The notes under the pieces: generated by a model
Database searches by the model: none
Told to the model about the DNA's origin: nothing
The model's input: only the letters and a program-made list of their open reading frames with translations
Shown: piece after piece, positions 1,112 to 32,000 of the stretch
Numbering within the stretch: the first letter of the stretch is position 1
Layout of the letters: each line of letters starts with the position of its first letter
Made by a program: the position numbers and the translations under genes
Assembly: GCA_017466325.1 (NCBI GenBank)
Contig: JAFTUK010000033.1
Location: 1 to 32,000, forward strand
Source of the DNA: Bacteroidaceae bacterium
GTDB taxonomy: Bacteria; Bacteroidota; Bacteroidia; Bacteroidales; Bacteroidaceae
DNA: 32,000 nucleotides
Direction of reading: 5' to 3'

Positions 1112-4100
1112 TTACTTAGACACCTTCTTCTGTCCGTTCTGGATATAGACCTGACCGGCAGGAGTATCGGGCAGACGACGGCCGCTGAGGTCATAGATGG
1201 GAGCCTCACCGTTTTCTGTACCTGCACCGCCAACAGAAGAAATGCCTGTGGCTGTGGTGAAGTCAATCTCCACTACGTCATCCTTTTCACAAGGTATCTC
1301 GGCAACGCCGTTCTCGTCGAGTGTTACATACACTTCCACGCCATTAACCTTCACACTTGCCTCGTTCAGTGCCATAGCACCCTTAGCACAACGTACCTTC
1401 AAGGGAGCGCCGGCATGGCTCTGGATGCGTACAGCCTGACACTTGCCTGCAGACCAGTTGAAGTCTACTGTGAAGTTGCCGATGGCCTTCATACCCTTCA
1501 CGTTGCCCTGCTTGTTCCATACGGTGGGCACGGCAGGCATGATGTTGATGTAACCGTGTGCACTCTGCATGAGCATCTCGGCAATACCTGAGCATACGCC
1601 GAAGTTACCGTCAATCTGGAAGGGAGCGTGACTGTCGAACAGATTGTAGTAGATACCGCCTGCACCGGCATTTGTACCATAGTCGGTAGAGTGCTTCAGA
1701 GCGTTCTTGATGATGATGTGTGCGTGGTCGCCATCCTGGGCACGTGCCCACAGGTTAACCTTCCAGCCCATTGACCAACCTGTAGCGGCATCGCCACGGA
1801 GTTTCAGAGAGTTGACGGCAGGAGTGAAGTATTCGCTCTCGGGAGTAATCTGGTCCATGGGGAAGAGAGCCATCATGTGAGACATGTGGCGGTGACCACG
1901 GTCGTTACTGATGTCGAACGGACTGTACTTCCACTCGCGGAGCAACTTCTCGCCGGTCTTCACACCATTATAGGTTGCACCCCAACTGCCGGTATAGGTC
2001 TCTGTATGCAGACCCTTGTCGGTCTTTTCGAGGTAGAGGTTCAGTTTAGCAACGTCCTCGGTGGTAAGACCAGTGTTCTCCACGCCAAGGATACCGATAG
2101 CTTCGCTCAGGTTCTGGAACAGATAGTAAATCATCTGCTGGGCATGAGCGGTACCGTCCTCGGTCTGGTTGTCGTGCTGCTCAGCACTGAACTCGTTTGG
2201 AGCAACGAATGTGCCATCGGGATCGAACTTGTATGCAGGTTTGTAGTTGCGTACACGTTCCTGTTCGTCCTGAGTGCTGTCGAAACCGCGGTCCTCTATC
2301 AAGCGGTGGAACCAGAACTGTGCGCAATCCCACATTACGGGGAAGGCCTTGGCCAGGAACTCCTTGTCCTGAGTATAACGCCAGTGGGTCCACAGGTGAC
2401 TGGTGTACCATACGTTGGCAACGAGGTAGTTGTCGCCCCATGTGCTCATGCTATTGTAGAGAGATGTCTCTGTAAGTACGCTCCAACCATAACCACCGTT
2501 ATAGCGGGTGCCCACTTCCTTCCAACCGGCACTGTTTGCACCACGAATGATGAAGTTGACGAAAGGCTTGTGCAGGTCAGAGAGGTTGGTAATCTCTGTG
2601 GGCCAGTAGTTCATCTGGATGTTGATGTTGGTGTGGATGTCAGAGTTCCATGGAGAATTGGTACCACGGTCGTTCCAGATACCCTGCAGGTTGTTGGGGG
2701 CAGCAATGGGCTTGCGGTTTGAACTGATAGCCAGGTAGCGTCCATAGTGGAAGTACAACTGCTCCAAGAACAGGTGGTCGTTGGCTGTGCTTGTACCATT
2801 GGTGTTCTTGGGATAGTAGTTGTCAACAAGAGTCTTGGTGTCAACGCTGGGAGTCTGCAGACCGAGGTCGAAGGTCATACGCTTGGTGATGGCGGTGAAG
2901 TCTTCAATATGATCCTTCTCAACAGCCACAAAACCCTTTGCAACAGCGGCTTCGATTGTAGCCTTTACCTCCTCGCTCACGTCTTCTGGTGTAACGGCGC
3001 GGAAGTATGACTTTGAATCTACGTCACCGATAAAGTTTGTTGCCCCCTTGAGGTAGAAGGTAACTTCGGTTGCATTCTGCACACTGATGCCCCTGCTTGA
3101 AGATTCCACGATAGCACCCTCATCGGCAACGACATGCAGACGTGCAGCATACTTGACAGTCATCTTGCCGGTGAAGTACGCCATACCGTTTTCATAAGTA
3201 ACACCGCCTGCACTTATATCCGAACCCGGTTCGATAGTAAAGTTCAGGTTCATCTTGTCCTCGCCCTCTGCCTTATACTGGGCAGCGATTACCTGATCAG
3301 GAGCAGAACTGAAATATTTGCGTGTAAACAGAGAACCGTTGCCGTTCTTGAACTGGACACCGGCAATACCCTCTTCAATATCAAGATAGCGCACATAGTC
3401 TGTAACGCCTTCATTTATGCTCTTGTCCTTGTTCTCCACGAAAACAGAACCGAAGTCCATGAATGTACGCTGTCCGCCACCGGCACCGACAACATTGGCA
3501 GCACCACTCCAGAGAGTTTTTTCGTTGAACTGAATTTCCTCGTTGTGCACGCCACCGAATATCATACATCCCAGTTCGCCGTTACCTAAAGGCAGGGCAT
3601 ACTCCATCCAGGGATAACTTACACCACTTGCTTCGGCAGAAGTCTTGTACCACAGGGTATTGGGATTCTTGGGCGCAAACTCCGTTACGCCGGTGATGTT
3701 CTGCACCTCATAGTAGTATGTATCGGGATAATCGTCAGGATTAACCTCGGTGAAGAAGAACTTACTGCCGGTATCACCTGTCACGCTGCCTGTGTTCCAC
3801 AATGCCAGGAAGTTTCCTCTTTTGTTCCACCAATGGTTACCGCCGTCTATCTTGACATAGGAAGGTGTACTATTGAAATTGAAAGTACCAGAGAACAGCG
3901 TGCTGTAACCATCAGTGCCGTCTTTAACCATCGTAGCACGTGCATTGGCCTCAGTACCTGTGATACCCAACACCTTAGAGAGACCTGTAGAATAGTTATA
4001 CACCTTGTATTTGCCGGTACTCTGGCTTACGAATGCCCATAAACCCTTGTTGTCACGAGGTTTGGCACTATTGGTCAGCAGCAAATTACCACCGTCGGTA

Positions 4101-4861
4101 TAGTCGGAATTCATGCTAACGAATCCTCCGTGTCCGCCCTGAATGGTGTAGAACTTGGTGTCAGCATCGAAATAACTTACATAGATAGTCAAACCGTCCA
4201 CATTTACAACGGCAAAAGTACCGTCCACAGATGTTGCCTGCACGTCAGACGCCTTGATGACAGCCTTGGTCGTTATGGTAGCACCGTCCTTGTATTCCTG
4301 ACCGTCATAAGTGAAACCGGCAGAAGCGTCTTCTGTACCAAGGACAACAACGGCATAGACCTTATCCTCGGGAATGGCTTCCTCTATGTAGAAACAGTTA
4401 CCGGCATCGGTTGTGGTCCAATTGTTCACGGCTATACCACTATTTGCCTGACCAGCAATCTGCGTATTCAATCCCTGACCACCTACGCACATCTTCCAGG
4501 GGTATGATGCATTGTCTACCTTCTCTATTGTAAGAGCTGCACTTGCAGCATCGGTAAACTTACCGCCCTGCCCTACATACTTCTGTGCGCCAACACTGAA
4601 AAGATAGTAGTTGTTACCATTCTTCTGGATATTAAACTGCAAGTTAGGATTGTCCAGACTATAAGTAACACTGCCTACGGATTTACCTGTACTTGTACAT
4701 AATTCACCCGGCATCTTGTCGCTGAAGAGCAAGAATGCGCGTTCACTCCTGATGGTGTAGACCTTGTCGTTATCCAACTGCGACAGGTCTGTCACCTTTT
4801 CAGCCCATCCCTGCACTGTGCAACAAAGAAGGGCAAACATCAAAAGATAAATCTTCTTCAT
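1112..4861 (-). CDS. Secreted GH95 family alpha-L-fucosidase with N-terminal accessory modules
   Basis: This 1249-aa exported enzyme has a signal peptide (residues 1-20). Two beta-rich accessory modules follow (about 25-165 and 220-385; ricin-like or carbohydrate-binding is a guess). The GH95 catalytic region runs from about 400 to 1180. Landmarks are LPLGNGELGCMIFGG (423-437), NINIQMNYW (745-753, whose two Asn match the catalytic Asn pair of the bifidobacterial GH95 enzyme AfcA), E894 as likely general acid, and QIDGNFG with D1084. GH95 enzymes remove alpha-1,2-linked fucose from host glycans or milk oligosaccharides; some act on alpha-L-galactose. The tail (from about 1220, IYDLSGRRL through GQVYIQNGQKK) resembles a type IX secretion sorting signal of Prevotella glycosidases. 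The sialidase gene ends 33 bp upstream on the same strand, so the two are probably co-transcribed. Confidence 0.92.
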   Translation of the reverse strand: MKKIYLLMFALLCCTVQGWAEKVTDLSQLDNDKVYTIRSERAFLLFSDKMPGELCTSTGKSVGSVTYSLDNPNLQFNIQKNGNNYYLFSVGAQKYVGQGGKFTDAASAALTIEKVDNASYPWKMCVGGQGLNTQIAGQANSGIAVNNWTTTDAGNCFYIEEAIPEDKVYAVVVLGTEDASAGFTYDGQEYKDGATITTKAVIKASDVQATSVDGTFAVVNVDGLTIYVSYFDADTKFYTIQGGHGGFVSMNSDYTDGGNLLLTNSAKPRDNKGLWAFVSQSTGKYKVYNYSTGLSKVLGITGTEANARATMVKDGTDGYSTLFSGTFNFNSTPSYVKIDGGNHWWNKRGNFLALWNTGSVTGDTGSKFFFTEVNPDDYPDTYYYEVQNITGVTEFAPKNPNTLWYKTSAEASGVSYPWMEYALPLGNGELGCMIFGGVHNEEIQFNEKTLWSGAANVVGAGGGQRTFMDFGSVFVENKDKSINEGVTDYVRYLDIEEGIAGVQFKNGNGSLFTRKYFSSAPDQVIAAQYKAEGEDKMNLNFTIEPGSDISAGGVTYENGMAYFTGKMTVKYAARLHVVADEGAIVESSSRGISVQNATEVTFYLKGATNFIGDVDSKSYFRAVTPEDVSEEVKATIEAAVAKGFVAVEKDHIEDFTAITKRMTFDLGLQTPSVDTKTLVDNYYPKNTNGTSTANDHLFLEQLYFHYGRYLAISSNRKPIAAPNNLQGIWNDRGTNSPWNSDIHTNINIQMNYWPTEITNLSDLHKPFVNFIIRGANSAGWKEVGTRYNGGYGWSVLTETSLYNSMSTWGDNYLVANVWYTSHLWTHWRYTQDKEFLAKAFPVMWDCAQFWFHRLIEDRGFDSTQDEQERVRNYKPAYKFDPDGTFVAPNEFSAEQHDNQTEDGTAHAQQMIYYLFQNLSEAIGILGVENTGLTTEDVAKLNLYLEKTDKGLHTETYTGSWGATYNGVKTGEKLLREWKYSPFDISNDRGHRHMSHMMALFPMDQITPESEYFTPAVNSLKLRGDAATGWSMGWKVNLWARAQDGDHAHIIIKNALKHSTDYGTNAGAGGIYYNLFDSHAPFQIDGNFGVCSGIAEMLMQSAHGYINIMPAVPTVWNKQGNVKGMKAIGNFTVDFNWSAGKCQAVRIQSHAGAPLKVRCAKGAMALNEASVKVNGVEVYVTLDENGVAEIPCEKDDVVEIDFTTATGISSVGGAGTENGEAPIYDLSGRRLPDTPAGQVYIQNGQKKVSK

Positions 4862-4894
4862 TTGATTTGTTGTTTATTTAGGTTAGTAATATAT

Positions 4895-6466
4895 TTATTT
4901 CACTGAATAGAGTCCGCATGTTATTGCCTCTAAAGAAATAGGCACATACACCATGGAATACCATCCCGGTTCTTCCTCATAGAAGAAGCCTATGCGACCG
5001 TCCTTCTGCAGGGTCATGGTGCTATATGCACTGCCTGTATGGCTGACGTGGTATGGCTGTTGGTTCCAATCCTCGGCAAATGCCTTGGGTGAGGCGTATG
5101 ATGCGGCCTCGGTAATGTCTTTCCAGTAAATCTTCACATCCGAACGTCCGTCGCCGGTTGGCAAAGACTGCAGGGCAAGGGTACGCTGTGCCCCGTCTGC
5201 CTTTCTCCGTGCCTGAAGGATGAGTATCTCACCGTTGGTACTGTTGCGTCCCACCTTTATGCCACCACGTTGCTGGTCGCTGGCAACTACGTCGCCCCAT
5301 GCTCCGTCCACTTTTTTCGGGTCATCGGAATACTTGTAGATATTGAAGAAACGTCCGGCACCCTTGCGGCTGCTCAGCACCACACTGCCGTCGGGCAGTT
5401 CTTCGCACTTGGGTTCGTCGCCACGGGGACAGGGCAATGCGGCCTTGCCTCCAAGGGCATGCCATGTCTGGCCGAAGTCATCGGTATAGAGCACACGGTT
5501 GCCATGGTTCTTTGTCCACACGGGGGCATATACACGATAATGGGTTCCCACCTTAATGGTCTTGCTCTGTGTCAGTTTGCCACTGCCTACGAAAAGGCTC
5601 TGCACACGATACTTGTCAAAGCCTTCCTCGCCACGCTGCATGAACGCACTATAGAACACGTTCGTTATGTCAGACCACGAACACATGGCTCCCTTGGGAG
5701 CAGGAGAGTGCTTACCGTCCAGCGCATCGCCCCAGGTTTTGCCATTGTCGGTGCTGTACAGGCGTGCCACGGGATTCGGCTCGCCGTCGGGCCAGTTGCC
5801 GTGCCAGCATACAGTATGTCCGCAGACGTCTATGAGCAGTATGGCACCGGTCTCACGGTCTACCACCATAGCAGGATCGCCGAAACCGTCATCGCGTACT
5901 CCCTCGTCGCTGTAACTGCCTTGGATAACGTATTTCCCTTCGCTCCACTTGCTGCCGTCCTTGGAACCAATGCGCATCACCTGGTCTACACGTCCGTAAC
6001 CAATGTCATTGCCACAAGGGCGTGCATCGTTTATAGCCAGGAGTTTGCCGTTCTTCATGGTCACGATGCTGGGTATGCGGAAAGGTTCCTTGTCGTTGTG
6101 GAACCACAGATACTGGTACTCGCTCTCTGCGTCGGCATCATAAACAACATTCCACGCATCGGGATGCTGTTCTATGCAACGCAGTGTATAGCCATGCAGT
6201 TTGTGCGCTCCTCTCAAGGCAAAGAACGCTCCGTCGGGTACATCAAAAGTAATGGTCTTGCCTGCCTCGTCGGCCTTTACCGTATAGAGGCTTGCCTTGT
6301 CTGCTATGCGGACTTCCAGCACGCCCATCCACAGATTGGTCTTGGGCGAACGTGTCTTGCCGTTCAACTGCACGTTCACCTTCACCGTCTCTGCCGTCAT
6401 AGGCAATGCCATCAGCATCAACGTCACAAGCGAGAATAATTGCTTAAGACTCTTGTTCTTCATCAT
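4895..6466 (-). CDS. Secreted GH33 exo-alpha-sialidase
   Basis: Sialidase that releases terminal sialic acid from glycans, exported by a signal peptide (about residues 1-26). Numbering starts at the ATG at 6466; a second ATG at 6463 is equally possible, and the in-frame TTG just upstream is less likely. Seen in order: an N-terminal beta domain (about 28-115); the FRIP motif (129-132) with the first triad Arg; candidate acid/base Asp154; Asp boxes at about 168-174, 238-245 (STDNGKTW) and 328-335; an EELPDGS segment with E356; Arg367; and GSAYSTM with Tyr481 as likely nucleophile. These are standard landmarks for GH33. Length (523 aa) is normal. It is the first gene of a two-gene unit with the GH95 enzyme. 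Confidence 0.92.
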   Translation of the reverse strand: MMKNKSLKQLFSLVTLMLMALPMTAETVKVNVQLNGKTRSPKTNLWMGVLEVRIADKASLYTVKADEAGKTITFDVPDGAFFALRGAHKLHGYTLRCIEQHPDAWNVVYDADAESEYQYLWFHNDKEPFRIPSIVTMKNGKLLAINDARPCGNDIGYGRVDQVMRIGSKDGSKWSEGKYVIQGSYSDEGVRDDGFGDPAMVVDRETGAILLIDVCGHTVCWHGNWPDGEPNPVARLYSTDNGKTWGDALDGKHSPAPKGAMCSWSDITNVFYSAFMQRGEEGFDKYRVQSLFVGSGKLTQSKTIKVGTHYRVYAPVWTKNHGNRVLYTDDFGQTWHALGGKAALPCPRGDEPKCEELPDGSVVLSSRKGAGRFFNIYKYSDDPKKVDGAWGDVVASDQQRGGIKVGRNSTNGEILILQARRKADGAQRTLALQSLPTGDGRSDVKIYWKDITEAASYASPKAFAEDWNQQPYHVSHTGSAYSTMTLQKDGRIGFFYEEEPGWYSMVYVPISLEAITCGLYSVK

Positions 6467-6501
6467 CAAGTATTAGGTTTTGGTTGTGTATTTTCATAAT
6501 T

Positions 6502-8480: not shown

Positions 8481-8591
8481 CTCCCTCCCATTCAGGGGCG
8501 AACGAGGTCTTTAGAAGATGGACTAAATGTCCATCTGTGCCTTGTGAGGGGAGCAATCCCCATTGCGACGCGCGGACTGGCCGGGGAGGGG
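8481..8591 (+). repeat. 111-bp structured repeat element, copy 1
   Basis: This element is an ungapped 111-bp match, in opposite orientation, to 16529-16639; by hand count 23 positions differ (about 79% identity). The outer arms CCCTCCC (8483-8489) and GGGAGGG (8584-8590) can close it. Inside are an 8-bp stem AGATGGAC/GTCCATCT (8516-8523, 8529-8536) with loop TAAAT, and a hairpin GGGGA-GCAA-TCCCC (8548-8561) with a GNRA-type loop. A block conserved with copy 2 follows (8562-8580). The element covers the last codons and stop of phoH. Confidence 0.8.
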
Positions 8592-9533
8592 TCCGTTTTC
8601 ACCTTTTCGTTTATCATACGCCTCCACTATCCTTGACACCAGACGGTGGCGCACTATATCTTTACGGTTCATGTGCACAAATCCTATGCCGCTTACTCCG
8701 TCCAGGATTTCCAAGGCCTCGGAAAGTCCGCTTCTGACACCACGGGGCAGGTCCACCTGCGATGTGTCTCCAGTGATTATCATCTTGGTGTTCATGCCCA
8801 TTCGTGTCAGGAACATCTTTATCTGTGCCGAAGTGGTGTTCTGCGCCTCATCAAGGATAACAACGGCATCGTTCAGCGTGCGTCCTCGCATGAAAGCCAA
8901 GGGGGCGATCTGCACGATGTTCTGTTCCATCATCTCGCGCAACTTCTGTGCCGGAATCATATCCTCCAGAGCATCGTAGAGGGGCTGCAGATAAGGGTCT
9001 ATCTTATCCCTCATGTCACCGGGCAGGAAACCAAGTTTCTCACCTGCCTCCACTGCCGGGCGCGAAAGGATTATCTTGCGTATTTCCTTGTTCTTCAGCG
9101 AGCGCACGGCCAGCGCTATGCTCATGTATGTCTTGCCGCTACCGGCAGGTCCGGTGGCGAATATCATATCGTTCTCCTGATAAAGGCGCACCAGTTTCTG
9201 CTGGTTCTCGCTTCTGGCGGAAATAGGTTTGCCCGTTACGCTGTACACCACCACGCCTTCCACGCCCTCCTTGCTGACACGTTCGCCACGCAGGATATGC
9301 AGGATATCCTCCTCTGTCAGGCTGTTGTACTTCAGGCAGTGTTTCTGGAGTTTCTCTATATTCTCCTCCAGAGCGCACATTTCCAATTCATCGCCCATCA
9401 CATGGAGCACGTTGCCACGTGCCACAATGCGCAACTTGGGATAGAGGGCCTTCACCATCTGGATATTGGCATTATTGACCCCATAGAACACTACGGGGTC
9501 CACATCTTCCAGTATGATATGCTTTTCTATCAT
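8523..9533 (-). CDS. phoH: PhoH family ATPase
   Basis: Cytosolic P-loop NTPase of the PhoH family; the exact role is not settled, though RNA-related functions are proposed for the family. The 336-aa protein has a small N-terminal domain (about 1-100), the Walker A motif GPAGSGKT (128-135), SRPAVEAGEKLGFLPGD (157-173), the Walker B motif VVILDEAQN (224-232), and ITGDTSQVDLPRG. The conserved core ends near AYDKRK (305-310). The last 23 or so residues are low-complexity and are encoded by the 111-bp repeat element, with the stop codon inside its variable hairpin. This tail looks like an accidental extension. The start ATG at 9531-9533 lies just downstream of a -7 element. Confidence 0.95.
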   Translation of the reverse strand: MIEKHIILEDVDPVVFYGVNNANIQMVKALYPKLRIVARGNVLHVMGDELEMCALEENIEKLQKHCLKYNSLTEEDILHILRGERVSKEGVEGVVVYSVTGKPISARSENQQKLVRLYQENDMIFATGPAGSGKTYMSIALAVRSLKNKEIRKIILSRPAVEAGEKLGFLPGDMRDKIDPYLQPLYDALEDMIPAQKLREMMEQNIVQIAPLAFMRGRTLNDAVVILDEAQNTTSAQIKMFLTRMGMNTKMIITGDTSQVDLPRGVRSGLSEALEILDGVSGIGFVHMNRKDIVRHRLVSRIVEAYDKRKGENGPLPGQSARRNGDCSPHKAQMDI

Positions 9534-15608: not shown

Positions 15609-15622
15609 ATATATATATATAT
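15609..15622 (+). repeat. AT dinucleotide run merging with the lpxC start codon
   Basis: Seven AT units run directly into the G of the lpxC ATG, so the start codon is part of the run. A change in unit number would alter spacing upstream of lpxC. The sequence alone cannot show that it varies. Confidence 0.5.
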
Positions 15623-16517
15623 GAAGCAACGCACACTGACATCATCCTTCACCCTACACGGCAAGGGACTTCATACAGGCATGGACCTCACAGTCACATT
15701 CTGCCCGGCTCCCGAAAACTACGGATACAAGATCCAGCGTGTAGACATGGAAGGGCAACCTATCATTGATGCCATTGCAGAAAACGTAGTAGAAACGACC
15801 CGTGGCACCGTACTTGGTATCGGAGATGCACGTTGCAGCACCATTGAGCATGGTCTGAGCGCCCTGTATGCCTTCGGTATCGACAACGTGCTGATACAGG
15901 TCAACGGACCAGAGTTCCCCATCTTGGACGGCAGTGCTGCACCTTACGTGCAGAAAATTCACGAAGCAGGCATAACCGAACAGCAGGCCGACAAGGATTG
16001 GTTTACCGTTACGGAACCCATAGAGATAAAGGACGAGGCAACAGGTTCGCACATCACCATAATGCCTGCCGACGACTTTGCCGTTTCCGTCACCATAGAC
16101 TTCAATTCTAAGATGATGCCCATACAGACGGCAACGCTGAGGGAGATCAACGACTTTGAAAAGGAGTTCTCGGCAGCCCGCACCTTCGTTTTTGTCAGAG
16201 AGATAGAACAGCTCCTGGCCTTGGGACTGATAAAGGGTGGAGACCTTGACAATGCCATAGTGATCTACGAGAGGGAAACCACTCAAGAGAGCATGGACAA
16301 ACTCTGCCAACTGACCAAGGCAGAATGGCACGATGCCACAAAACTTGGATACATACAGCACAAACCTCTTGTATGGGACAACGAACCTGCCAGACACAAA
16401 TTGCTGGACATCATCGGCGACATAGCCCTTGTGGGCAAACCCATCAAGGGGCATATCGTAGCCATCAAGCCCGGGCATACCATCAACAATAGGTTCGCCC
16501 GGTTGCTGAGGGGATAA
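15621..16517 (+). CDS. lpxC: UDP-3-O-acyl-N-acetylglucosamine deacetylase (LpxC), without a FabZ domain
   Basis: Zinc-dependent deacetylase, the committed step of lipid A synthesis. Zinc ligands are H77 (in TIEHGLSAL, after E76), H259 and D263 (in RHKLLDIIGD), and H286 aligns with the C-terminal active-site His. All key residues are present and the 298 aa equal a stand-alone LpxC. In Bacteroidales this gene is usually a fusion of about 460 aa with a FabZ dehydratase. Here the reading frame stops after RFARLLRG, and I find no FabZ-like sequence in any frame of the next 394 bp. That stretch is made of repeats. It lies in lipid A order between lpxD and lpxA. Confidence 0.95.
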   Translation: MKQRTLTSSFTLHGKGLHTGMDLTVTFCPAPENYGYKIQRVDMEGQPIIDAIAENVVETTRGTVLGIGDARCSTIEHGLSALYAFGIDNVLIQVNGPEFPILDGSAAPYVQKIHEAGITEQQADKDWFTVTEPIEIKDEATGSHITIMPADDFAVSVTIDFNSKMMPIQTATLREINDFEKEFSAARTFVFVREIEQLLALGLIKGGDLDNAIVIYERETTQESMDKLCQLTKAEWHDATKLGYIQHKPLVWDNEPARHKLLDIIGDIALVGKPIKGHIVAIKPGHTINNRFARLLRG

Positions 16518-16528
16518 GGAGAAAAAGC

Positions 16529-16639
16529 CCCCTCCCCAACCAGTCCGCGCGTCGCAATGGGGATTGCTCCCCTCAAAGGACACGAAAGTATATTCAATAC
16601 TTTCTCTAAAGGGCCTTTTCTCCCCTGCATGGGAGGGAG
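16529..16639 (-). repeat. 111-bp structured repeat element, copy 2
   Basis: Inverted copy of 8481-8591, same length, no gaps. Closing arms are CCCTCCC (16530-16536) and GGGAGGG (16631-16637). The inner stem GAAAGTAT/ATACTTTC (16584-16591, 16597-16604) has a different sequence from copy 1, yet pairs perfectly over 8 bp. Five of the eight pairs differ and all are compensated. The GNRA-loop hairpin and the block beside it are identical to copy 1. Confidence 0.8.
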
Positions 16640-19770: not shown

Positions 19771-19925
19771 CTTTCACACTGCATATATTATGCGCAGATA
19801 AAAGGGGTAAATTGTGTTCAAAAGCCAATAGAGCCCATCGAGAGAACCGAAAAAATACAAACCGTGAAAAATGTGATAAAAGGCAAAACAATTTTTTAAC
19901 TAAACAATCTATAAAACCAAAAATT

Positions 19926-22900
19926 ATGCGTATGAGAAACCGTTTAAGCAAATGTAGCAAGCATGTGGCCTTCGCCGCATGTATGCTGGCTCTCGGCGGA
20001 AGCTTCTCGGCATGTCAGGACGAGTACACACTGGACGATGCAAAACCCGTGTGGCTCAACTCCAGCATCTACGAGACTCTTGAGAGCGACGGAAGTTACA
20101 CGAACTACCTGCGCCTGATTGGTGACCCCGATGTCAACACGGGAGAGAACAACGACGAAAGTTCTCTGGTGCAGATTCTGTCAAAGACCGGTTCTAAGAC
20201 AGTGTTTGTCGCCAACGACCAGGCATGGCAGAACTTCTTCGAGGCAAACAAGAAGTTGCCCAAGGCCAACCCTTGGCACTATGCCCAAAGTTACGAGCAG
20301 CTGTCCAAGAACCAGAAGAAACTTCTGCTTCACACCAGCATGCTGAACAATGCCATCACCATGGAGAGCCTGTCCAGCAACTCTGGCGAGACACCCACTC
20401 CTGGTATGTATCTGCGTCGCTACACTGATGTCGAGGTTGTGGACACAATCACAAAGATTGCTGTTACAGACCTGCCCAAGAGCTACTGGACTGCAGACAA
20501 GCAGGCCACAGAAGACGGTCTTGCACAACCCGAGGTAGACCAGTGGAGCCGTATCCGCAACTGCGGTCTGCTCGGTTATGACTCAATCTACATGGTTATG
20601 GACAGCTCCCTGACCATGATGATCCACTTCACCAACGAGTACATGGCCAAGAAGCAGATTACCGACGAGGACTTCCGCATCATCATGGGTCGCGAGCGTA
20701 TCACAAGCGACGTACATATCTATGACGCCCTTCTGGACAGCGCCGACATCGTTTGCGAAAACGGTTATATCAACATGACAGAAAAGCCCCTCGTGCCACT
20801 GGCCAACATGGCAGAGGCTATCCGTACAAACGGAAAGACCAACATCTACAGCCACATACTGGACCGCTTCTCTGTTCCTTTCCAGAACAAGACCGTAGCA
20901 CGTCTGTATTCCAAGTTGGACCCTAACTTCCTGGAAACCGACACTCTCTACACTAAGCGTTATTACTCTAAGCGCTCCTACGGTTCAACCGTTACCAGCG
21001 ACGTGGCTCTGACCAACGACGAGCGCGGCAACCTGTTTGCCAACGGTGAGGCGATCCTCAAATTCGACCCGGGATGGAACGAGTACTATCCCAACGGTGA
21101 ATCTCCTGAAACCGACATGGGCGCAATGTTCGTTCCCAACGACGCACAGATGATCGAGTACTTCAACACCGGTGGTGGTAAGACACTGCTTGAGGAGTAC
21201 TGTAAAGACCATCACATCGGACAATACAGTGCTAATACCGAACAGGATCTGGAACTTCTCTATCAGGACATTGACCAGATCCCCTTGAGCATATTCTACA
21301 GTATTCTCAACCATGGTATGTTCGACAGCTTCGTGGCCACCGTGCCCAGCAAGATGCTGAAGCAGCGCGAAACAACCACTCAGGAGCAGATCTTCACCGA
21401 GCCTGACACAAGGCTTGCAAAGGATGGCGGTAACATCGACACAGTCCTCGTGACATGTAACGGTGCCCTATATATTATGAATAATGTATTCACACCCTCC
21501 GACTTCAACTGTGTTGCCACTCCTGCGTTCATCCGTTCTACCAACAAGATTATGAAATGGGCCGTCTACAGCGATGCTACACTGACCAGCCCCATCATGA
21601 ACGTAAACTACTATGCATACCTCAAGGCCATGCAGAGCCGCTTCAGCTTCTTCCTGCCCAACGATGAAGCTATGCAGTACTACTATGACCCCATGAGTTT
21701 CACCAGCCGTTACCCCCGCGTAATGCGCTTCCTCTACACCTCCGGCAACTTCCCCTTTGCCACCAAGAGTTCAAAGGGTGTCTCCGTTCTGGCCAACTTC
21801 GACGTGACCACAGGTACCATCGGCCGTGACCTGTCTACACAGTCTACCAACCAGCAGGAGGTTGTCAACCGTCTGCGCCAGTTGCTTGAGCACAACACCA
21901 TTGTACACGAGAACGGTGTGAACGCCATCAATACCGAAGAGGACGAGTACTACCTCTCAAAGAACGGTATGGGTATCAAGGTTATACGCGACGAGACCGG
22001 TGTTATCAAGGCTCAGGGCGGTTTCCAAATCGAGAACGAGCGCGAAGGTCTGGCACACAACCACCCCGGTATCCTCTACTGTAACGTACTGGAAAAGGGT
22101 GACTACAAGAACGGTTGCACCTTCACTGTTGACGCTCCCCTGATTCCCGCTTCACGAAGCGTATTCAGCGTGATGTCAAACATCAAGCGCGGTCAGAAGG
22201 GCGAACCTCAGGACTACAACAGCCCCGAGACAATAGAGTCTAACCCCTACTATGAGTTCTTCAGACTCTGTAACGAGGCTAACTGGAACCTGATAGTCAA
22301 GTCTGGCGTTGTCGATGAGAACGACCCCAAGTATGACGTAAGTACCACACAGGGCGAAACTGCTCTTAACAAGGCTGTGAACAAGTACATGACCTTCGTG
22401 GACAACAATGCCGTAGACTACAACATACAGTTCTGGGACAACTTCAACTACACTGTATTTGCTCCCACCAACGAGGCCATCAGAGAGGCCGTAGCAAACG
22501 GTCTGCCCACATGGGAAAGCATCGAGGCTGATTTTGAGGCATGCGCCAACGAAGAAGGTGAACTGACTAATGCCACAGACAGTCTCCGTATCCAAGAGAA
22601 GATCATATACCTCACCAACTTCATCCGCACTCACTTTGCCGACAACACCATATTTGCCGACAAGTCTGACATGAAAGCAGAGATGTTTACCAGCAGTTTC
22701 AACAACGAGACTGGTCTGTTCGTCAAGTCATTCGTTCAGAGAGAGGGCGGTATGCTCAAGGTTAAGGACAACACCACAACCGGCCAGTGGATTACCACTA
22801 AGTACACCACAGACGACGGCCGCGATGTGAAGAACATCATGACCTGCGACCGCGAGTGTAACTCAAAGGTTAAGGACCAGAGCATGAACAACAAGACCAC

Positions 22901-23054
22901 AGATGCCAGCAACTATGCTGTAATACATCTGATTAACGGTGTTCTGAACCATGAAGACCTTGTTAACGGTCAATACCCCGACTTCCAGAAAGATGCAGAA
23001 GAAAATGGTGGCAAGGCCGCACGCGCATACATTCAGAAATTCGCAATCCGATAA
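19926..23054 (+). CDS. Surface lipoprotein with about four FAS1 (fasciclin) domains
   Basis: A 1042-aa lipoprotein with signal peptide and lipid Cys30 (GGSFSAC). QDE directly after the Cys fits the acidic export signal that sends Bacteroidetes lipoproteins to the cell surface. About four FAS1-like units can be placed by their strand motif: FVANDQAW (94-101), FVPNDAQM (402-409), FFLPNDEAM (575-583) and TVFAPTNEAI (843-852). FAS1 domains are adhesive modules that bind proteins or glycans. The start at 19926 is chosen because it gives a proper lipoprotein signal; longer in-frame starts do not. SusC follows after 11 bp. Codon use is strongly biased (GGT, AAC, CTG), as in highly expressed genes. 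Ligand unknown. Confidence 0.85.
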   Translation: MRMRNRLSKCSKHVAFAACMLALGGSFSACQDEYTLDDAKPVWLNSSIYETLESDGSYTNYLRLIGDPDVNTGENNDESSLVQILSKTGSKTVFVANDQAWQNFFEANKKLPKANPWHYAQSYEQLSKNQKKLLLHTSMLNNAITMESLSSNSGETPTPGMYLRRYTDVEVVDTITKIAVTDLPKSYWTADKQATEDGLAQPEVDQWSRIRNCGLLGYDSIYMVMDSSLTMMIHFTNEYMAKKQITDEDFRIIMGRERITSDVHIYDALLDSADIVCENGYINMTEKPLVPLANMAEAIRTNGKTNIYSHILDRFSVPFQNKTVARLYSKLDPNFLETDTLYTKRYYSKRSYGSTVTSDVALTNDERGNLFANGEAILKFDPGWNEYYPNGESPETDMGAMFVPNDAQMIEYFNTGGGKTLLEEYCKDHHIGQYSANTEQDLELLYQDIDQIPLSIFYSILNHGMFDSFVATVPSKMLKQRETTTQEQIFTEPDTRLAKDGGNIDTVLVTCNGALYIMNNVFTPSDFNCVATPAFIRSTNKIMKWAVYSDATLTSPIMNVNYYAYLKAMQSRFSFFLPNDEAMQYYYDPMSFTSRYPRVMRFLYTSGNFPFATKSSKGVSVLANFDVTTGTIGRDLSTQSTNQQEVVNRLRQLLEHNTIVHENGVNAINTEEDEYYLSKNGMGIKVIRDETGVIKAQGGFQIENEREGLAHNHPGILYCNVLEKGDYKNGCTFTVDAPLIPASRSVFSVMSNIKRGQKGEPQDYNSPETIESNPYYEFFRLCNEANWNLIVKSGVVDENDPKYDVSTTQGETALNKAVNKYMTFVDNNAVDYNIQFWDNFNYTVFAPTNEAIREAVANGLPTWESIEADFEACANEEGELTNATDSLRIQEKIIYLTNFIRTHFADNTIFADKSDMKAEMFTSSFNNETGLFVKSFVQREGGMLKVKDNTTTGQWITTKYTTDDGRDVKNIMTCDRECNSKVKDQSMNNKTTDASNYAVIHLINGVLNHEDLVNGQYPDFQKDAEENGGKAARAYIQKFAIR

Positions 23055-23065
23055 AAACATAAACC

Positions 23066-26000
23066 ATGAATAATATCATAAAGCTATTTTTGCTGTGGGC
23101 CGTGGTCACTATGGCTCTCCCAGCTAACGCACAACGCCGTATCTCCGGTACCGTATCGGACGATATCGATGTTATTATCGGTGCCAATGTTAAGGAGGTT
23201 GACAAGAACAACCGTATCCTGAATGCTACGGTAACCGACTTCAACGGTAACTTCACCATGACCCTGAAGGACGACAAGAGCAACCTTGTCATCTCCTATA
23301 TCGGTTATAAGACTGTTACCATCCCCACTGCCGGCAAGACAGTGTTCAAGATCCACATGGAGGACAATGCCAAGGTGATGCAGACCGTAGAGATAAAGGC
23401 CAAGAAGCTGGCCGCAACCACTGGTCTTGACATTCCTGAACGCGAGTTCTCCGGTGCAGTACAGAAATTCGATATGGCCGACCTCGACGGTCTGTCCTTC
23501 ACCTCTGTCGACGAGGCTCTGCAAGGTCAGATTGCCGGTCTGGACGTTGTTGCCAACTCCGGTAACGCCGGTGCCGGTACAACAATGCGTCTGCGCGGTA
23601 CCAGCACCTTGAACGGTAACGCACAGCCCCTTATCGTTGTTAACGACCACATCTTCGAACTTCCCGATGATGCCATGCAGGGAGTGGACTTCTCCAACAT
23701 GGACAACGAGGAACAGTTCTCCACACTGCTGAACGTAAACACCGAGGACATCGAGAGCATTACCGTACTGAAGGACGGTGCCGCTGCAAAGTGGGGTTCA
23801 AAGGGTTCTAACGGTGTAATCGAAATCAAGCTGAAGCGCGGTAAGCGCGGTAAGACTGCCGTTACCTTCAACTACAAGTTCACCGGCACATGGCAGCCCG
23901 ACGGCTACAAGATGCTGAACGGTGACGAGTACACCATGTACATGAAGGAGTCATATTACAACCCCACAAACACTTCCAAGAGTCTTCTGGAGTTGGACTA
24001 CAACAACACCTACGGCAGTATCTTCCACAACTACAACAAGAATACCGACTGGGTGGACGCTATCAGCCGCTTCGGTAAGGAGCACCACTACTACCTGACC
24101 CTCTCCGGTGGTGGTGAAAAGGCTACATTCCGTATCGGTGCAGGTTATGACATGAACGACGGTACTACCATCAACCAGGACTTCAACCGTTTCAGCACGA
24201 TGACCGCTCTGGACTACTGGGTCAGCGACCGCATCAAGTTCAGTTCAAACATCAACATGACCTTCACCACACGTCATAACAACACCGTTGCCAACGCTGC
24301 CAACAGCAAGGCCTACAAGGCTATGCCCAACATGAGCATCTATGCATACGACATCAACGGCAACCCCGTTTATGACCAGTATGGCAATCCCCAGTACTTC
24401 AACATGTTGCCCCTGGCTGCAAACGCCGGTTACACTAACGGTATAGAGAACGACGGTTTCCACACCTCTTGGGAACTCCGTGATATGTTCCAGAACGGCA
24501 ACCCCGTGGCTTATGCCAACCTGAGCGACAACAAGCAGAAGCAGTACAACCTGACTCCCCAGTTCAGCGTTGAGTACAAGCTCCTTGGCAAGGAAAGCGA
24601 CCAGTGGCGTCTGAACTACGTGGGCGACGTTCAGCTGAACATCTACAACACCAGCGAGGATGCATACAACCCCGCAGAACTCATCAACATGCCTTGGATA
24701 AACGGTGGTGATAACGGCGCTGACAACGGAAAATACAACAACAACCGTAACACCGTATATAACAGCGAGTACAAGTCATTGGAGTTCACTACCCGTCACG
24801 ACCTGCGTTTCTACAGCGCATTCAAGAACACCAAGCACAGTCTGAGCGGCCTTGCACGTTTCGAGATGTACTCAGGTAACTCTACCAGCCAGAGCAAGAG
24901 CATTTGGAACGTACCCGACGGCGTTCAGGATCCCACTTCTCCCGGTATGCTGTATCAGGCCAATGCCAGCAACGGTTCATGGCGCGGCCAGAGTTTCTTC
25001 TTCCAGGCACACTATTCTTACGACGGTAAGTACAACCTCGATGCCAGCGTACGTGTAGACGGTAGCACCAACTTCGGTGCCGGCAACAAGTACGGTACAT
25101 TCCCTTACTTCGCCGCACGTTGGAACATCTCTGATGAAAAGTGGATGGACTGGTCAGACAGTTGGCTCTCAATGCTCTCTTTCCGTCCCTCATACGGTAT
25201 CTATGGTAACAGTTCTATCGGTGCCAACAACCAGTACAACCGTTACGGCAACGGTGGCATGTACAACGGCCACACCGTAATTATCCCCGAGAACCTCTCT
25301 CTGCAGAGCATCCGTTGGGAGAAGAGTTCTATCTGGAACATGGGCTTCAATCTGGGTCTGTTTAAAGACATGATTACCGTTGACGCAGAAATCTATGGTA
25401 AGAGAACCAAGGACCTTCTCATCAGCGACATCCGCATCCCCTCAGCAAACGGCTTTGCTTCACTGTCCAAGATGAACGGTGGTGTAATGTACAACAAGGG
25501 TTGGGAAGTCTACATCTCTTCAGGCAAGTTCGCCAAGGTTGGCAAGTTCAGCATGAAGGCTCGTTTCAACATGTCTCAGAACTTCAACAACGTGGAAGAA
25601 CTGAACAGCCTCTATCTTGAGTCTGTGAACGGTGCCGAGAACTATCAGCCCGGTAACCTCAGCTACAACCGCCGCGTACAGATTGGCAACGCTCTCGGTT
25701 CCATCTATGGTCTGAAGTACAAGGGCGTTTACCGCTACGACTACGAGCACAACGGTTACACTCTGAACACCTGGAGCAAGTACGGCTACAACGAGACCAT
25801 CATCGTTGACGGCAAGGAGCGCCGCGCCAAGGACTATGCCGAGTTCCTGCAGTACAAGCACACAGCTACCGGTAGAGACATCAAGGGTAACCCCATCAAC
25901 ACAGCAGCCGCAGCCGAGCGTCGTGGTGAGAACTTCACCTGCCCCGTGGCATACGACAAGAACGGCAACATGCTGACAGACGCAAAGGGCGAACCCCTGA

Positions 26001-26644
26001 AGATGTACTACGTTTACAACAACGACGGCGGCACACGCTACCAGTTCAACGGTGGTGACGCTATCTACGAGGACGTGAACAGCGACGGCCAGATCGACCG
26101 CTATGATATGGTCTACCTGGGCAACTCCAACCCCAAGTTCTACGGTGGTGGCGGTCTCACCTTCTTCTATGACAAGATGAGCCTGAACATCGGTCTGAAC
26201 TTCCGTGTAGGCAGCCAGGTTGTCAACCTCGCCCGTATGACCTACGAGAGCATGCGCGACAACAACAACCAGTCATACGCTACTACATGGCGCTGGAGAA
26301 AGAATGGTGACATCACCGAGATTCCCCGTGCCATCAACACATTCGGTACCGGTGCGTACAGTTACAACTCCCTGCCCAGCGACCGCTATGTTGAGGACGG
26401 CGACTACCTGCGCGTACAGTACATCCAGTTCCGCTACGACATGGATCCCAAGAAGTTCGATTGGCTGAAGAAGTGCGGCGTACGCACCCTGAACCTCTCT
26501 GCTTCAGTCAACAACCTGTTCTGCTGGAGCAAGTACACCGGTGTTGACCCCGAAGTTAGCCCCAACGGTTTCAACCCCGCCATTGACTACGCTAAGGTTC
26601 CCCGCTCTAAGTCATTCACTTGCAGTATAAATCTCGGATTCTAA
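23066..26644 (+). CDS. SusC/RagA-type TonB-dependent outer membrane transporter
   Basis: A 1192-aa outer membrane barrel that imports oligomers with its SusD partner. Seen are a signal peptide (1-22, cleaved after ANA), a carboxypeptidase-regulatory-like domain (about 25-100), a TonB-box-like TVEIKAK (107-113), the plug domain (about 120-260) with TTMRLRGTSTLNGNAQPLIV, and the SusC signature at 228-254. The signature reads AAKWGSKGSNGV where most members have AIYGSRGANGV. The barrel ends with a terminal Phe. There is no STN domain, so direct sigma/anti-sigma signalling is not indicated. susD follows after 12 bp. Confidence 0.95.
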   Translation: MNNIIKLFLLWAVVTMALPANAQRRISGTVSDDIDVIIGANVKEVDKNNRILNATVTDFNGNFTMTLKDDKSNLVISYIGYKTVTIPTAGKTVFKIHMEDNAKVMQTVEIKAKKLAATTGLDIPEREFSGAVQKFDMADLDGLSFTSVDEALQGQIAGLDVVANSGNAGAGTTMRLRGTSTLNGNAQPLIVVNDHIFELPDDAMQGVDFSNMDNEEQFSTLLNVNTEDIESITVLKDGAAAKWGSKGSNGVIEIKLKRGKRGKTAVTFNYKFTGTWQPDGYKMLNGDEYTMYMKESYYNPTNTSKSLLELDYNNTYGSIFHNYNKNTDWVDAISRFGKEHHYYLTLSGGGEKATFRIGAGYDMNDGTTINQDFNRFSTMTALDYWVSDRIKFSSNINMTFTTRHNNTVANAANSKAYKAMPNMSIYAYDINGNPVYDQYGNPQYFNMLPLAANAGYTNGIENDGFHTSWELRDMFQNGNPVAYANLSDNKQKQYNLTPQFSVEYKLLGKESDQWRLNYVGDVQLNIYNTSEDAYNPAELINMPWINGGDNGADNGKYNNNRNTVYNSEYKSLEFTTRHDLRFYSAFKNTKHSLSGLARFEMYSGNSTSQSKSIWNVPDGVQDPTSPGMLYQANASNGSWRGQSFFFQAHYSYDGKYNLDASVRVDGSTNFGAGNKYGTFPYFAARWNISDEKWMDWSDSWLSMLSFRPSYGIYGNSSIGANNQYNRYGNGGMYNGHTVIIPENLSLQSIRWEKSSIWNMGFNLGLFKDMITVDAEIYGKRTKDLLISDIRIPSANGFASLSKMNGGVMYNKGWEVYISSGKFAKVGKFSMKARFNMSQNFNNVEELNSLYLESVNGAENYQPGNLSYNRRVQIGNALGSIYGLKYKGVYRYDYEHNGYTLNTWSKYGYNETIIVDGKERRAKDYAEFLQYKHTATGRDIKGNPINTAAAAERRGENFTCPVAYDKNGNMLTDAKGEPLKMYYVYNNDGGTRYQFNGGDAIYEDVNSDGQIDRYDMVYLGNSNPKFYGGGGLTFFYDKMSLNIGLNFRVGSQVVNLARMTYESMRDNNNQSYATTWRWRKNGDITEIPRAINTFGTGAYSYNSLPSDRYVEDGDYLRVQYIQFRYDMDPKKFDWLKKCGVRTLNLSASVNNLFCWSKYTGVDPEVSPNGFNPAIDYAKVPRSKSFTCSINLGF

Positions 26645-26656
26645 TATCAACAGATA

Positions 26657-28507
26657 ATGAAAACATATAAGAATATATTCAAAGCAACTTCCCTTCTGGC
26701 CGTGATGTCCCTGGCTATGACATCATGCAATGACTGGCTGACAGTTCATCCCCAGACACAGATTGTGGAAGAAAACTTCTGGGAAGACAAGAACGACCTG
26801 GAAGGTGTACGCTACGGCGTATACAAGAATATGGCCGATCAGGTGGAGAAGATGATCATTTGGGGTGATCTTCGTGCAACTGACGTGTACAATCTGACCG
26901 CCCAGAGAACAAGCGATCAGGGCAACCGCGACAACTTCCGCAATATCATCCAGGCCGACATAGATACCACATGGGCATACTATGACTGGAGTGGCATGTA
27001 CCGCACCATCGGTTATTGCAACAAGGTGCTCCAGCATGGCGAAGAGGTATTGGAGAAGGACAAGCAGTTCACTGCCAGCGAATGGCGTCAGATGAAGGCA
27101 GAAATGGTGACAATGCGTGCACTGAGCTACTTCTATCTGGTACGTGCATTCAAGAGCATCCCCTACACCACAAAGGTGGTTAACAGCGATACCGAGGTGG
27201 AATACTTCCCCCAGTTGCCCGCTCTGGATGTGATGGACAGCCTTATCAACGATGTTGAAAGCGTGGCAGGACAGGCCCGCAACCGCTTTGTCGATGTCAA
27301 GGAGACCAAGGGCATGATAACAAACACTGCCATCTATGCCCTCCTCAGCGACATGTACCTGTGGCGCGCAAGCATGCGTCAGGGCCGCTCTCTCGGCGAC
27401 TCTACCATCACACAGGCTATGATAATCGATGACTACCAGAAGTGCATCCTGAACAGCGAACTCTCCATCAGCAAACTGAAGGACCAGTTCGACGAGGAAA
27501 GAAAGGGTCTGGGTGCAAACCTTGGCAAGAGCGACTATGTAAGCTGGAGCAATGCACCTTCCTTCAACGGCAAGACCATCGACTTCATGTACACCAACGA
27601 TGTAGATGAAGCCAACCGCGGCAACTTCGACCTGATTGCCCAGAAGAGAATCTTCAACCAGGGCAACAGTTACGAGAGTATCTTCGAACTGCAGTTCAAC
27701 ACCAGCGACAGCCGAAAGAACGATGCGGTGAACAGCATTTGGGGTGCCTTCAACAAATCCCATCTTGTAAGCACATTCCCCTACACTGGTGAAGAAGCAG
27801 ATGGTGTATATGACACCCGCTACTGGTTCAGTGCCTGGAACAAATTACTTGGCAACGACAATCCTGTCGACTTCTACTGCCTGAAGTGGGCAGACGCTCT
27901 GCCTTTAATTCAAGGTAACATCGGCCAAGCAGATGCCGACATCCAGGTTTCTTTTGAACAGGACGAGTACAAGAACTGGATTGTGTATCGTCTGAGCGAT
28001 GTTCTGCTTATGAATGCTGAGGCACGTGCATGTCTGGGCGAATTGAAGGTTGACGCAAGCGAAAACAACAAGGTTTGCCAGCAAATTCTGCGTATGGTAA
28101 ACAGACGCTGGTGGATTAACGTAGTGAGCGGTGGCGACTTCAACACCAACGTTAACGTCAACGACGCCAATGCAGATGCCTACTACAACTCTCCCAACAA
28201 CCTGATGAACGTAATGAACACCCGCAAGCGTGAGTTCATCGGCGAAGGCAAGCGTTGGTTCGACCTCGTACGTTATGCAGAACGCATCAGCGAGAGCGAC
28301 GAGAGCATCGAAGGCACAAAGGGCGAGAATGGCATATTTGAGACCTTCATGGGTAATGTGGATGGTATAGACATGGTAAAGAACCGTTGTGAAAACCTCT
28401 GGGCTTTGTATTGCCCCATCTACTACATGGAGTGCAAGGCTTACCGTGCAAATGGTGCCAACATCAACCAGAATCCCATCTGGAACAAATCTAAGTATGA
28501 CAGATAA
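26657..28507 (+). CDS. SusD/RagB-type surface lipoprotein
   Basis: A 616-aa lipoprotein (Cys24 in LAMTSC, followed by NDW) that forms the lid of the SusC barrel and captures ligand. Typical SusD features are FWEDKNDLEGVRYGVYKNM near the N-terminus, helical TPR-like repeats in the first half (WRQMKAEMVTMRALSYFYLVR), and the C-terminal region with YRLSDVLLMNAEA and NTRKREFIGEGKRWFDLVRY. It is longer than many SusD proteins but within the family range. The substrate cannot be told from sequence. Confidence 0.95.
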   Translation: MKTYKNIFKATSLLAVMSLAMTSCNDWLTVHPQTQIVEENFWEDKNDLEGVRYGVYKNMADQVEKMIIWGDLRATDVYNLTAQRTSDQGNRDNFRNIIQADIDTTWAYYDWSGMYRTIGYCNKVLQHGEEVLEKDKQFTASEWRQMKAEMVTMRALSYFYLVRAFKSIPYTTKVVNSDTEVEYFPQLPALDVMDSLINDVESVAGQARNRFVDVKETKGMITNTAIYALLSDMYLWRASMRQGRSLGDSTITQAMIIDDYQKCILNSELSISKLKDQFDEERKGLGANLGKSDYVSWSNAPSFNGKTIDFMYTNDVDEANRGNFDLIAQKRIFNQGNSYESIFELQFNTSDSRKNDAVNSIWGAFNKSHLVSTFPYTGEEADGVYDTRYWFSAWNKLLGNDNPVDFYCLKWADALPLIQGNIGQADADIQVSFEQDEYKNWIVYRLSDVLLMNAEARACLGELKVDASENNKVCQQILRMVNRRWWINVVSGGDFNTNVNVNDANADAYYNSPNNLMNVMNTRKREFIGEGKRWFDLVRYAERISESDESIEGTKGENGIFETFMGNVDGIDMVKNRCENLWALYCPIYYMECKAYRANGANINQNPIWNKSKYDR

Positions 28508-28510
28508 TAG

Positions 28511-28516
28511 AGGAGG
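28511..28516 (+). promoter_or_regulatory. Strong Shine-Dalgarno AGGAGG before the second FAS1 gene
   Basis: A full AGGAGG lies 8 bases before the ATG at 28525. Strong Shine-Dalgarno sites are uncommon in Bacteroidetes; other genes in this window have none this clear. Confidence 0.6.
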
Positions 28517-28524
28517 ATTATAAA

Positions 28525-30765: not shown

Positions 30766-30840
30766 TCGGAGGGAAATGTCGACATAACTCATATAATATA
30801 ATAAACAACCTAAACAATTCACTATTCATATTACATATAT

Positions 30841-32000
30841 ATGAAAAAAGGAATAAGCAAATATCTCGGAGCACTCGTAATGGGAACTGCCTTAATGGCA
30901 GTCCCCTCGTGCACCGACACCTGGAACGAGCATTACCAGGCAGAGGATGCCTACACCGCTAATGAAAGCCTGTGGGAACTGCTGGAAGCACGTGAAGACC
31001 TGAGCAACTTCTGCTCAATCGTTGCTAAGGCAAAGTTCTACCGCGACGAGACACATCCTGCCTATACCATTAACGGCAAGGATACCGTGTACTACACATT
31101 CAAGGATATTTTGAATGCAAACTCTCCCGTTACCGTATGGGCTCCCACCAACGACGCTCTGACAGCCGAGGAATGGCAGAAGTTCGAGGAAATGGCAGAG
31201 AACGACGGTTACAACCTGCAGCAGCAGTTCGTGGGTAACCACATTGCCCTTTACCGCAAGACAATGAGCAAGAACGGTAAGGAGACCCTGCGTCTAATCA
31301 ACAGCAAGTTCGCCGTTATCAACTACGAGGAAGGCACACTGCAGAAGGCTCAGGTAGTAGAGAAGAACATCGGTGCACGCAATGGTCTGTTGCACGTTCT
31401 GGACAGTCAGAACGAGTTCCTCTTCAACCTGTACGAGTACATCAAGTTCAGCGGTGAAGTTGAGACTTTCCGCAACTACCTTGTACAGCGCGATACCGTT
31501 TACTTCTTGGAGTCTGCAAGTATCGAAGGTCTGCCCGACGAGAACGGTAACCCCACCTACGTGGACAGCGTTTACTTCCAGGACAACATGTTGTTCAACA
31601 ACCAATTCTATAACCCCACAGGTGCCGATGCCGAGGATGCGTGGATGAACAGCATCAAGATGTTCTATGCACAAATCAACACCGAGGACTCTGCATTCGT
31701 AATGGTTGTTCCCACCGATCAGGCATGGCAAAATGCCACAGAGATGCTCAAGCCCCTGTACAACTACGTGAGCACCTATCCCAGAATGGACAAGGTGAAC
31801 CTCACCGCCACAAAAGGCGAGACTATGGACATCTTCGGTGCAAGAAAGACTTTTGCCAACGGCAAGGGTTACGAGACCGTTGACTCCCTGCAGGACGTAA
31901 ACATCAATATGGACATCATCAGCCCATTGGTGTTCAACGTGAACCTCCAGCCCCAGGTAAACGGCCAGATATGGACAGCAGAGAAGTTCATGAACGGCGG
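30841..32000 (+). CDS. FAS1-domain lipoprotein, cut by the window end
   Basis: An open frame from ATG 30841 runs without a stop to the end of the window (at least 386 aa). It has a lipoprotein signal with Cys24 (AVPSC) followed by TDTWNEHY, a start I associate with Bacteroidetes FAS1 lipoproteins. A FAS1 unit spans about 40-195 (TVWAPTNDAL near 98, closing around NGLLHVLDSQ). A second begins about 200, with FVMVVPTDQAW near 282-292. It is the third FAS1 protein of the operon and follows the second by 75 A/T-rich bases. Its size and C-terminus are unknown. Confidence 0.85.
   Translation, partial: MKKGISKYLGALVMGTALMAVPSCTDTWNEHYQAEDAYTANESLWELLEAREDLSNFCSIVAKAKFYRDETHPAYTINGKDTVYYTFKDILNANSPVTVWAPTNDALTAEEWQKFEEMAENDGYNLQQQFVGNHIALYRKTMSKNGKETLRLINSKFAVINYEEGTLQKAQVVEKNIGARNGLLHVLDSQNEFLFNLYEYIKFSGEVETFRNYLVQRDTVYFLESASIEGLPDENGNPTYVDSVYFQDNMLFNNQFYNPTGADAEDAWMNSIKMFYAQINTEDSAFVMVVPTDQAWQNATEMLKPLYNYVSTYPRMDKVNLTATKGETMDIFGARKTFANGKGYETVDSLQDVNINMDIISPLVFNVNLQPQVNGQIWTAEKFMNG

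Follow-up and report, generated by a model that had tools for sequence, protein, structure and literature searches.

A widespread, structure-conserved and probably mobile repeat of the REP kind in Bacteroidales

Results

The window analysed here is a stretch of 32,000 nucleotides from the draft genome of a Bacteroidaceae bacterium (G000; 2.59 Mb, 56 contigs, 88% complete), which we call the source genome. It carries the same repeat twice, as copies A and B (Table 1). Copy A overlaps the end of phoH. Because the phoH stop codon lies inside the core of this copy, the last ~22 PhoH residues are encoded by the repeat; they fall beyond the PhoH domain (residues 104-307). At the phoH site of the relative G077 the repeat is absent, as read from the sequence. 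Copy B follows lpxC (15621-16517), which encodes 298 amino acids with the LpxC domain as the only domain match; the C-terminal FabZ fusion that is common in Bacteroidetes is missing. Elsewhere the window holds a GH95 glycosidase gene beside a gene with a BNR repeat match (sialidase-like; 1112-6469) and, at 19812-31998, genes for a fasciclin-domain protein, then a TonB receptor with a plug domain and then a SusD-family protein.

The original prediction described two 111-bp copies on opposite strands (8481-8591, +; 16529-16639, -) that align without gaps, and this is indeed the case, with 88 of the 111 positions identical. Its reading of the inner stems, AGATGGAC/GTCCATCT versus GAAAGTAT/ATACTTTC, was also correct: five pairs are changed, all five are compensated, and the loop is TRAAT in both. 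The 111-bp stretch is a composite, consisting of an 82-nt core and both arms of a REP-like repeat.

Table 1. Positions of the two copies of the repeat and of their parts in the window.
Feature	Positions	Strand	Basis
Copy A, whole unit (core inserted in REP-like repeat)	8481..8593	+	comparison with REPs of this type that lack the core
Copy A, 5' arm of REP-like repeat, CTCCCTCCC	8481..8489	+	
Copy A, 82-nt structured core	8496..8577	+	covariance model R1, E 4.9e-26
Copy A, helix P2 (8502-8508 paired to 8539-8545; internal loop and P3 lie between its strands)	8502..8545	+	
Copy A, helix P3, 8 bp, TAAAT loop (the inner stem of the original prediction)	8516..8536	+	
Copy A, helix P4, GCAAT-CCCC-ATTGC	8553..8566	+	
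Copy A, tail GACGCGCGGAC 3' of P4 (on the reverse strand, CGTC adjoining the hairpin)	8567..8577	+	
Copy A, 3' arm of REP-like repeat, GGGGAGGGGTC	8583..8593	+	
phoH, stop codon and last ~22 codons within copy A	8523..9533	-	
Copy B, whole unit, ~10 bp past the lpxC stop codon (16517)	16527..16639	-	
Copy B, 82-nt structured core	16543..16624	-	covariance model R1, E 1.5e-23
Copy B, helix P3, TGAAT loop	16584..16604	-	
Copy B, helix P4	16554..16567	-	

A BLAST search of the source genome with copy A and its flanks gave 22 matches at E<=1.9e-7, copy A itself included. From 21 of these we prepared alignment A2, omitting L021, the 3' half of which is replaced, and from A2 the covariance model R1. 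With R1 we detected 24 copies in the source genome at E<=1.9e-14, the next candidate having an E value of 0.017. The recurrence of the repeat thus far exceeds what chance would give. In most of them the core reads GGGCGA-P2-CUUUAGA-P3 (CURAAUG loop)-GU-P2'-GAGGGGA-P4 (YYCC loop)-GACGCGCGGAC. P2 has 7 bp and is followed by an asymmetric internal loop, UUUAGA opposite GU, and by P3 with 8 bp and the CURAAUG loop. The 3' part comprises the purine run GAGGGGAG, P4 with 5 bp and the tail GACG..GG.

The stems vary in a compensated manner. In the source genome, two-sided changes occur in 13 of the 20 pairs and 96.1% of the cells are paired; the covariation score is 0.534, compared with 0.236±0.019 for shuffled alignments and 0.04-0.15 for versions in which the structure is slid. 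Alignments A1 and A2 were made with MAFFT, structure not used. Over 83 distinct copies all 20 pairs show two-sided changes, 92.2% of the cells are paired and the score rises to 0.656 (shuffled, 0.196±0.009; slid, 0.04-0.10), in an alignment fitted to the structure; A4 and A5 are model-aligned and hence biased towards it. A covariance search of the source genome and its relatives had been proposed as a check of the fold; further copies are present in both, their stem changes are compensated, and the idea that selection keeps the fold rather than the sequence is strongly supported. RNAalifold, given no structure, returned the same three helices together with a fourth that joins the CTCCC of the REP to the GGGGA of the core, the pairs of which vary on one side at most, with no two-sided change.

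The GNRA hairpin that the original prediction placed beside the stem (GGGGA-GCAA-UCCCC in copy A) fared less well. It can form in most source-genome copies (95.8% of the cells pair), but it shows no two-sided change in 19 distinct copies and its covariation equals that of the shuffles, whereas the overlapping P4 hairpin, GCAAT-YYCC-ATTGC, has two-sided changes in three of its five pairs (12 cells; none of 500 shuffles reached this cell count). The GNRA hairpin is thus not supported as the conserved unit; it may be an alternative fold. A possible H-type pseudoknot of the P4 loop with adjacent G runs, judged by eye, was dropped because the pairing is missing in some subfamilies.

The forward strand folds more stably than the reverse strand in 109 of 114 distinct cores, a set that includes some weak model matches. 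Additionally, non-standard cells are more often G-T than A-C (24:4 and 51:17, a single pair giving 27 of the 51). From the stability and the G-T excess, the relevant strand seems to be the top one, either as RNA or as single-stranded DNA.

Within the genus, R1 found the core in 87 of 139 genomes, with at least 33 matches in two of them, and no match in the other 52 under strict filters; copy numbers per genome thus run from none to at least 33. In the family it is found in 47 of 399 genomes and 7 of 30 sampled genera, and a first sample of 16 genomes from other families gave no match to R1. A second model, R2, built from 90 matches, detected the element in 4 of 393 genomes of the order, namely the source genome and three genomes of one genus in another family. 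The copies of this second family have a longer P2, and their internal loop can accommodate an additional hairpin; most keep the P3 loop, P4 and the CGACGG-type tail. Since the genus, family and order searches used stricter Infernal filters and scored no more than 33, 11 and 11 candidates per genome, respectively, the absences are soft and the highest copy numbers should be read as minimum values. Most of the counts rest on draft assemblies, and many copies are located close to contig ends. An exact pattern matched 36 stretches in named genomes, titled Bacteroidaceae, Prevotellaceae or Bacteroidales, and the named animal sources are all ruminants. The same pattern gave no match in viral contigs, nor did blastn at E 1e-5 against 50,697 phage and 72,556 plasmid records; on these results we rejected a phage or plasmid passenger.

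Most cores of the source genome follow a run of G within the 3' arm of a REP-like palindrome. A TCCC(C)TCC palindrome arm lies directly 5' of the core in 18 of the 24 copies, and the remaining six cores lie 3' of other C-rich hairpins. The palindrome also exists alone: the pattern CTCCCCTCC-N3-7-GGAGGGG-N0-6-GGGGGNGGG gave 54 intact core-free copies, the reversed control none. Close neighbours (<=260 bp, cores counted with REPs) form 20 pairs, of which 17 are head-to-head, three tandem and none tail-to-tail. With the strict pattern and within 260 bp, head-to-head pairs take in 26 of the 54 REPs together with 8 of the 24 cores.

Several other contexts are unrelated to this palindrome. In G016 the core lies 3' of the CCCAGGGCG..GCCCTGGG repeat (the CCCAGGGC repeat). 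In relatives it occurs downstream of 5S rRNA genes, within a copy of the 5S 3' end in inverted orientation, and Rfam detects 5S rRNA in 5 of 12 related loci. At L098, L100, L103 and L106 the region 3' of the 5S genes contains copies of the 5S 3' end in both orientations, with terminator-like hairpins, and the core lies between these copies. In the second family, cores are located ~30-200 bp from tRNA genes in three of nine loci (L271, L272 and L274; tRNA-Lys or tRNA-Arg). Tandem cores are seen there at L266, L271 and L272, and at L266 an ORF with an Omp85 domain stops exactly where a core begins, at its first base. Incomplete cores immediately upstream of complete ones (L061, L187, L188, L190 and L191) suggest, from their arrangement, insertion into older cores. 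A universal rule of insertion after a hairpin was rejected, because the excess of stems of at least 5 bp that end at the first three bases of the core is only modest (24 of 68 context clusters versus 22% of 2563 control sites). A flank-to-flank palindrome as a general rule was dropped as well, since the 5' flanks pair no better with their own 3' flank than with that of another copy (49 of 300 shuffles were as low).

Orthologous sites were compared between the 24 source-genome copies and ~0.76 Mb of the 2.6 Mb relative G076. Ten copies have a match of at least 250 bp there; L032 matched on one side only and is uninformative. Both genomes hold the core at L034 and L037. At L038 and L047, G076 has the REP without the core, and at L035, L041 and L044 it lacks the whole unit. 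The L038 site reads CCCTTGTGG-core-GGGCTGG in the source genome versus CCCTTGCGGAGGGGCTGG in G076, so that ~2 nt are replaced with no target duplication; overall, no clear target duplication was seen and ~2-3 nt of the target look replaced. L039 is filled in both genomes, with a REP loop and P2/P3 stems that differ and a P4 and tail that are the same, a patchwork indicative of gene conversion. The REP loops differ between the genomes at L038 and L047, too. At the site of copy B (L043), G076 lacks the core and has other repeats, so it offers no clean empty site; its lpxC-lpxA gap (L217) contains copies of other repeats, ..GGCATGCCGCGTCC.. and ..GCTTCGCTACGACAGAG...

The original prediction had offered a REP-type (RAYT) transposase as a possible partner of the hairpin. 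PF01797 (Y1_Tnp, RAYT/IS200) has no match in the source genome, 88% complete, or in the copy-rich relatives G016, G126, G076 and G077, in a search that did match five control genomes. These relatives, like G052, G128 and G049, belong to the 8 of 16 element-bearing genomes, all drafts, that gave no match; five of the other eight score well and three weakly. In a further set of element-bearing genomes the domain was found in G013 (well) and in G003 and G010 (weakly), and no match was obtained in G001, G005, G008 and G015. IS110 elements often target REPs. PF01548 (IS110, DEDD transposase) is present in 4 of the 16 element-bearing genomes and without a match in 12, including G000, G016, G126, G076 and G077. 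Given this patchy occurrence, neither domain is linked to the element in these drafts, and mobilisation by RAYT or by IS110 is not supported.

The element also matches no named RNA family, as the original prediction had supposed. At the gathering score, Rfam 15 gives only a tRNA in the window and only 5S rRNA in the 12 related loci, and under permissive settings copy A yielded three matches, all far below the gathering score (best E 0.4); a known RNA family is thus not supported. In the open-access literature, searched by title and the start of the abstract, no description of the element is found among the matches listed. Passages on candidate RNAs in PMC8040213 and PMC2864571 do not describe it.

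Discussion

The repeat is real, widespread and structure-conserved, it is of the REP kind, and it is probably mobile: sites differ by presence or absence in G076, copy number varies, and the contexts (REP, 5S, tRNA, nested) are unrelated. We lean, if only slightly, towards a non-autonomous mobile repeat whose top strand folds and which is moved in trans by a candidate enzyme. Such an enzyme would recognise the folded top strand by its shape and conserved loops, in the way REP/IS200-type transposases recognise single-stranded hairpins, and would insert the core 3' of the G run in C-rich/G-rich palindromes; copies might additionally swap parts through gene conversion. The fold, the strand preference, the presence or absence of copies at orthologous sites and the several unrelated contexts are observed; the action of an enzyme on the folded strand, and the choice of single-stranded DNA over RNA for that strand, are our inference. 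The mobile reading has to bear that the PF01797 and PF01548 searches of the 16 element-bearing drafts produced no mobilising gene, and it is weakened because gene conversion is sufficient to bring a core into a REP that is already in place (L039). Of the two options in the original prediction, a structured RNA or a hairpin recognised by shape, recognition by shape fits these data; the RAYT given as its example is not supported.

It is somewhat unlikely, in our view, that the core is a functional RNA (3'-UTR or trans-acting) which is selected for a cellular role and spread as a passenger of the REP. Compensated stems, fixed loops, tolerance of G-U and stability on one strand are all traits of structured RNAs, and some copies in relatives come after 5S rRNA. 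Furthermore, in 11 of the 24 source-genome cores an ORF pointing at the core ends either inside it or no more than ~45 nt from its 3' end, the ORFs having been called mechanically and left unannotated, some of them spurious. A cellular role sits poorly with the many genus genomes that lack a match under strict filters and with copies that one genome has and another lacks at the orthologous site. In 15 of the 24 copies the ORF that lies closest on the 3' side runs antisense to the core, although a constant neighbour gene is possible among these unannotated ORFs. Homologous recombination is a further candidate: the core may have spread solely by gene conversion between REP-like repeats after rare founding events. 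The differing core and REP loop with a shared P4 and tail at L039, the REP loops that differ at the same site at L038 and L047, and the same kind of REP 5' of the core in 18 of 24 copies all fit this idea. The core nevertheless also stands in unrelated sequences (5S-derived ones, the CCCAGGGC repeat, gene ends and other cores) in which no recombinable shared flank is seen, and we consider conversion as the sole route quite improbable.

Movement by a RAYT (Y1 tyrosine transposase) would account for the short REPs and cores that stand head-to-head in 17 of 20 close pairs, the inverted doublets of RAYT-mobilised REPINs. A GTAG before P2, the foot of RAYT-type REPs, is found in 15 of the 114 distinct cores, though in none of the 21 aligned cores of the source genome, and well-scoring Y1 transposases occur in 5 of 16 element-bearing genomes as well as in G013. 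Against this stand the missing PF01797 matches in the source genome, G016, G126, G076 and G077 in a search that did match five control genomes, and this explanation is very improbable. To return to the non-autonomous mobile repeat that we prefer, its boldest form is an undescribed class of minimal mobile element: a gene-less 80-nt sequence propagated via a conserved three-helix fold of one strand, inserting behind runs of G in palindromes (REPs, inverted 5S ends and other copies of the element) through a mover outside the Y1 and IS110 families, possibly via an RNA intermediate. We regard this as unlikely.

The element provides a covariance-backed family of gene-less, probably mobile repeats from ruminant and gut Bacteroidales, with more than 100 distinct copies. 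Filled and empty orthologous sites, together with near relatives that differ in copy number, open the spread of REPs without a dedicated transposase (the CGTC class) to a direct test. Should the fold function as RNA, the family would be a structured RNA that Rfam lacks.

On the best reading, the closest kin are CGTC-tagged REPs and REPINs. REPINs/BIMEs with RAYTs were reportedly described by Nunvar et al. in 2010 (PMC2817692). As characterised by Bertels and Rainey 2011 (PMC3116915), they resemble the host REPs, which form inverted head-to-head pairs with a spacer and also occur as singletons. They differ in that the source genome has no RAYT match and that one arm of eight pairs holds an extra covarying core. 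CGTC-tagged REPs occur in Bacteroidetes without a dedicated transposase, according to Di Nocera et al. 2013 (PMC3733652). The likeness extends to a dispersed palindromic repeat in Bacteroidetes hosts and to a CGTC that adjoins the P4 hairpin on the reverse strand of most cores: 95 of the 114 distinct cores have GACG 3' of P4, within their last 18 nt, and 19 do not. As to a transposase, neither of the two families searched, PF01797 and PF01548, is linked to the core. By the same paper, CGTC-tagged REPs are single stem-loops of 20-40 bp with a stem of 8-9 bp, complementary A-T in the first two positions and a CCA tail, whereas the core has 82 nt and three helices, and its P4 has 5 bp and starts with G-C in 18 of 19 distinct source-genome cores. 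Because stem length, tail and overall size do not fit the class, we do not file the core as a member; by analogy, it may work like a CGTC-tagged REP. Unlike in that class, the core here sits inside a second, different REP.

HEARO/IS605-type structured elements are mobile structured sequences on one strand that are probably moved in trans, as the present element may be; the core is much shorter than these and has no Rfam match. BOX and ERIC elements are repeats scattered between genes that fold in an RNA-like way and have no transposase of their own. The core shares these features and differs in that it is nested in other repeats and occurs in many species, with stems that covary.
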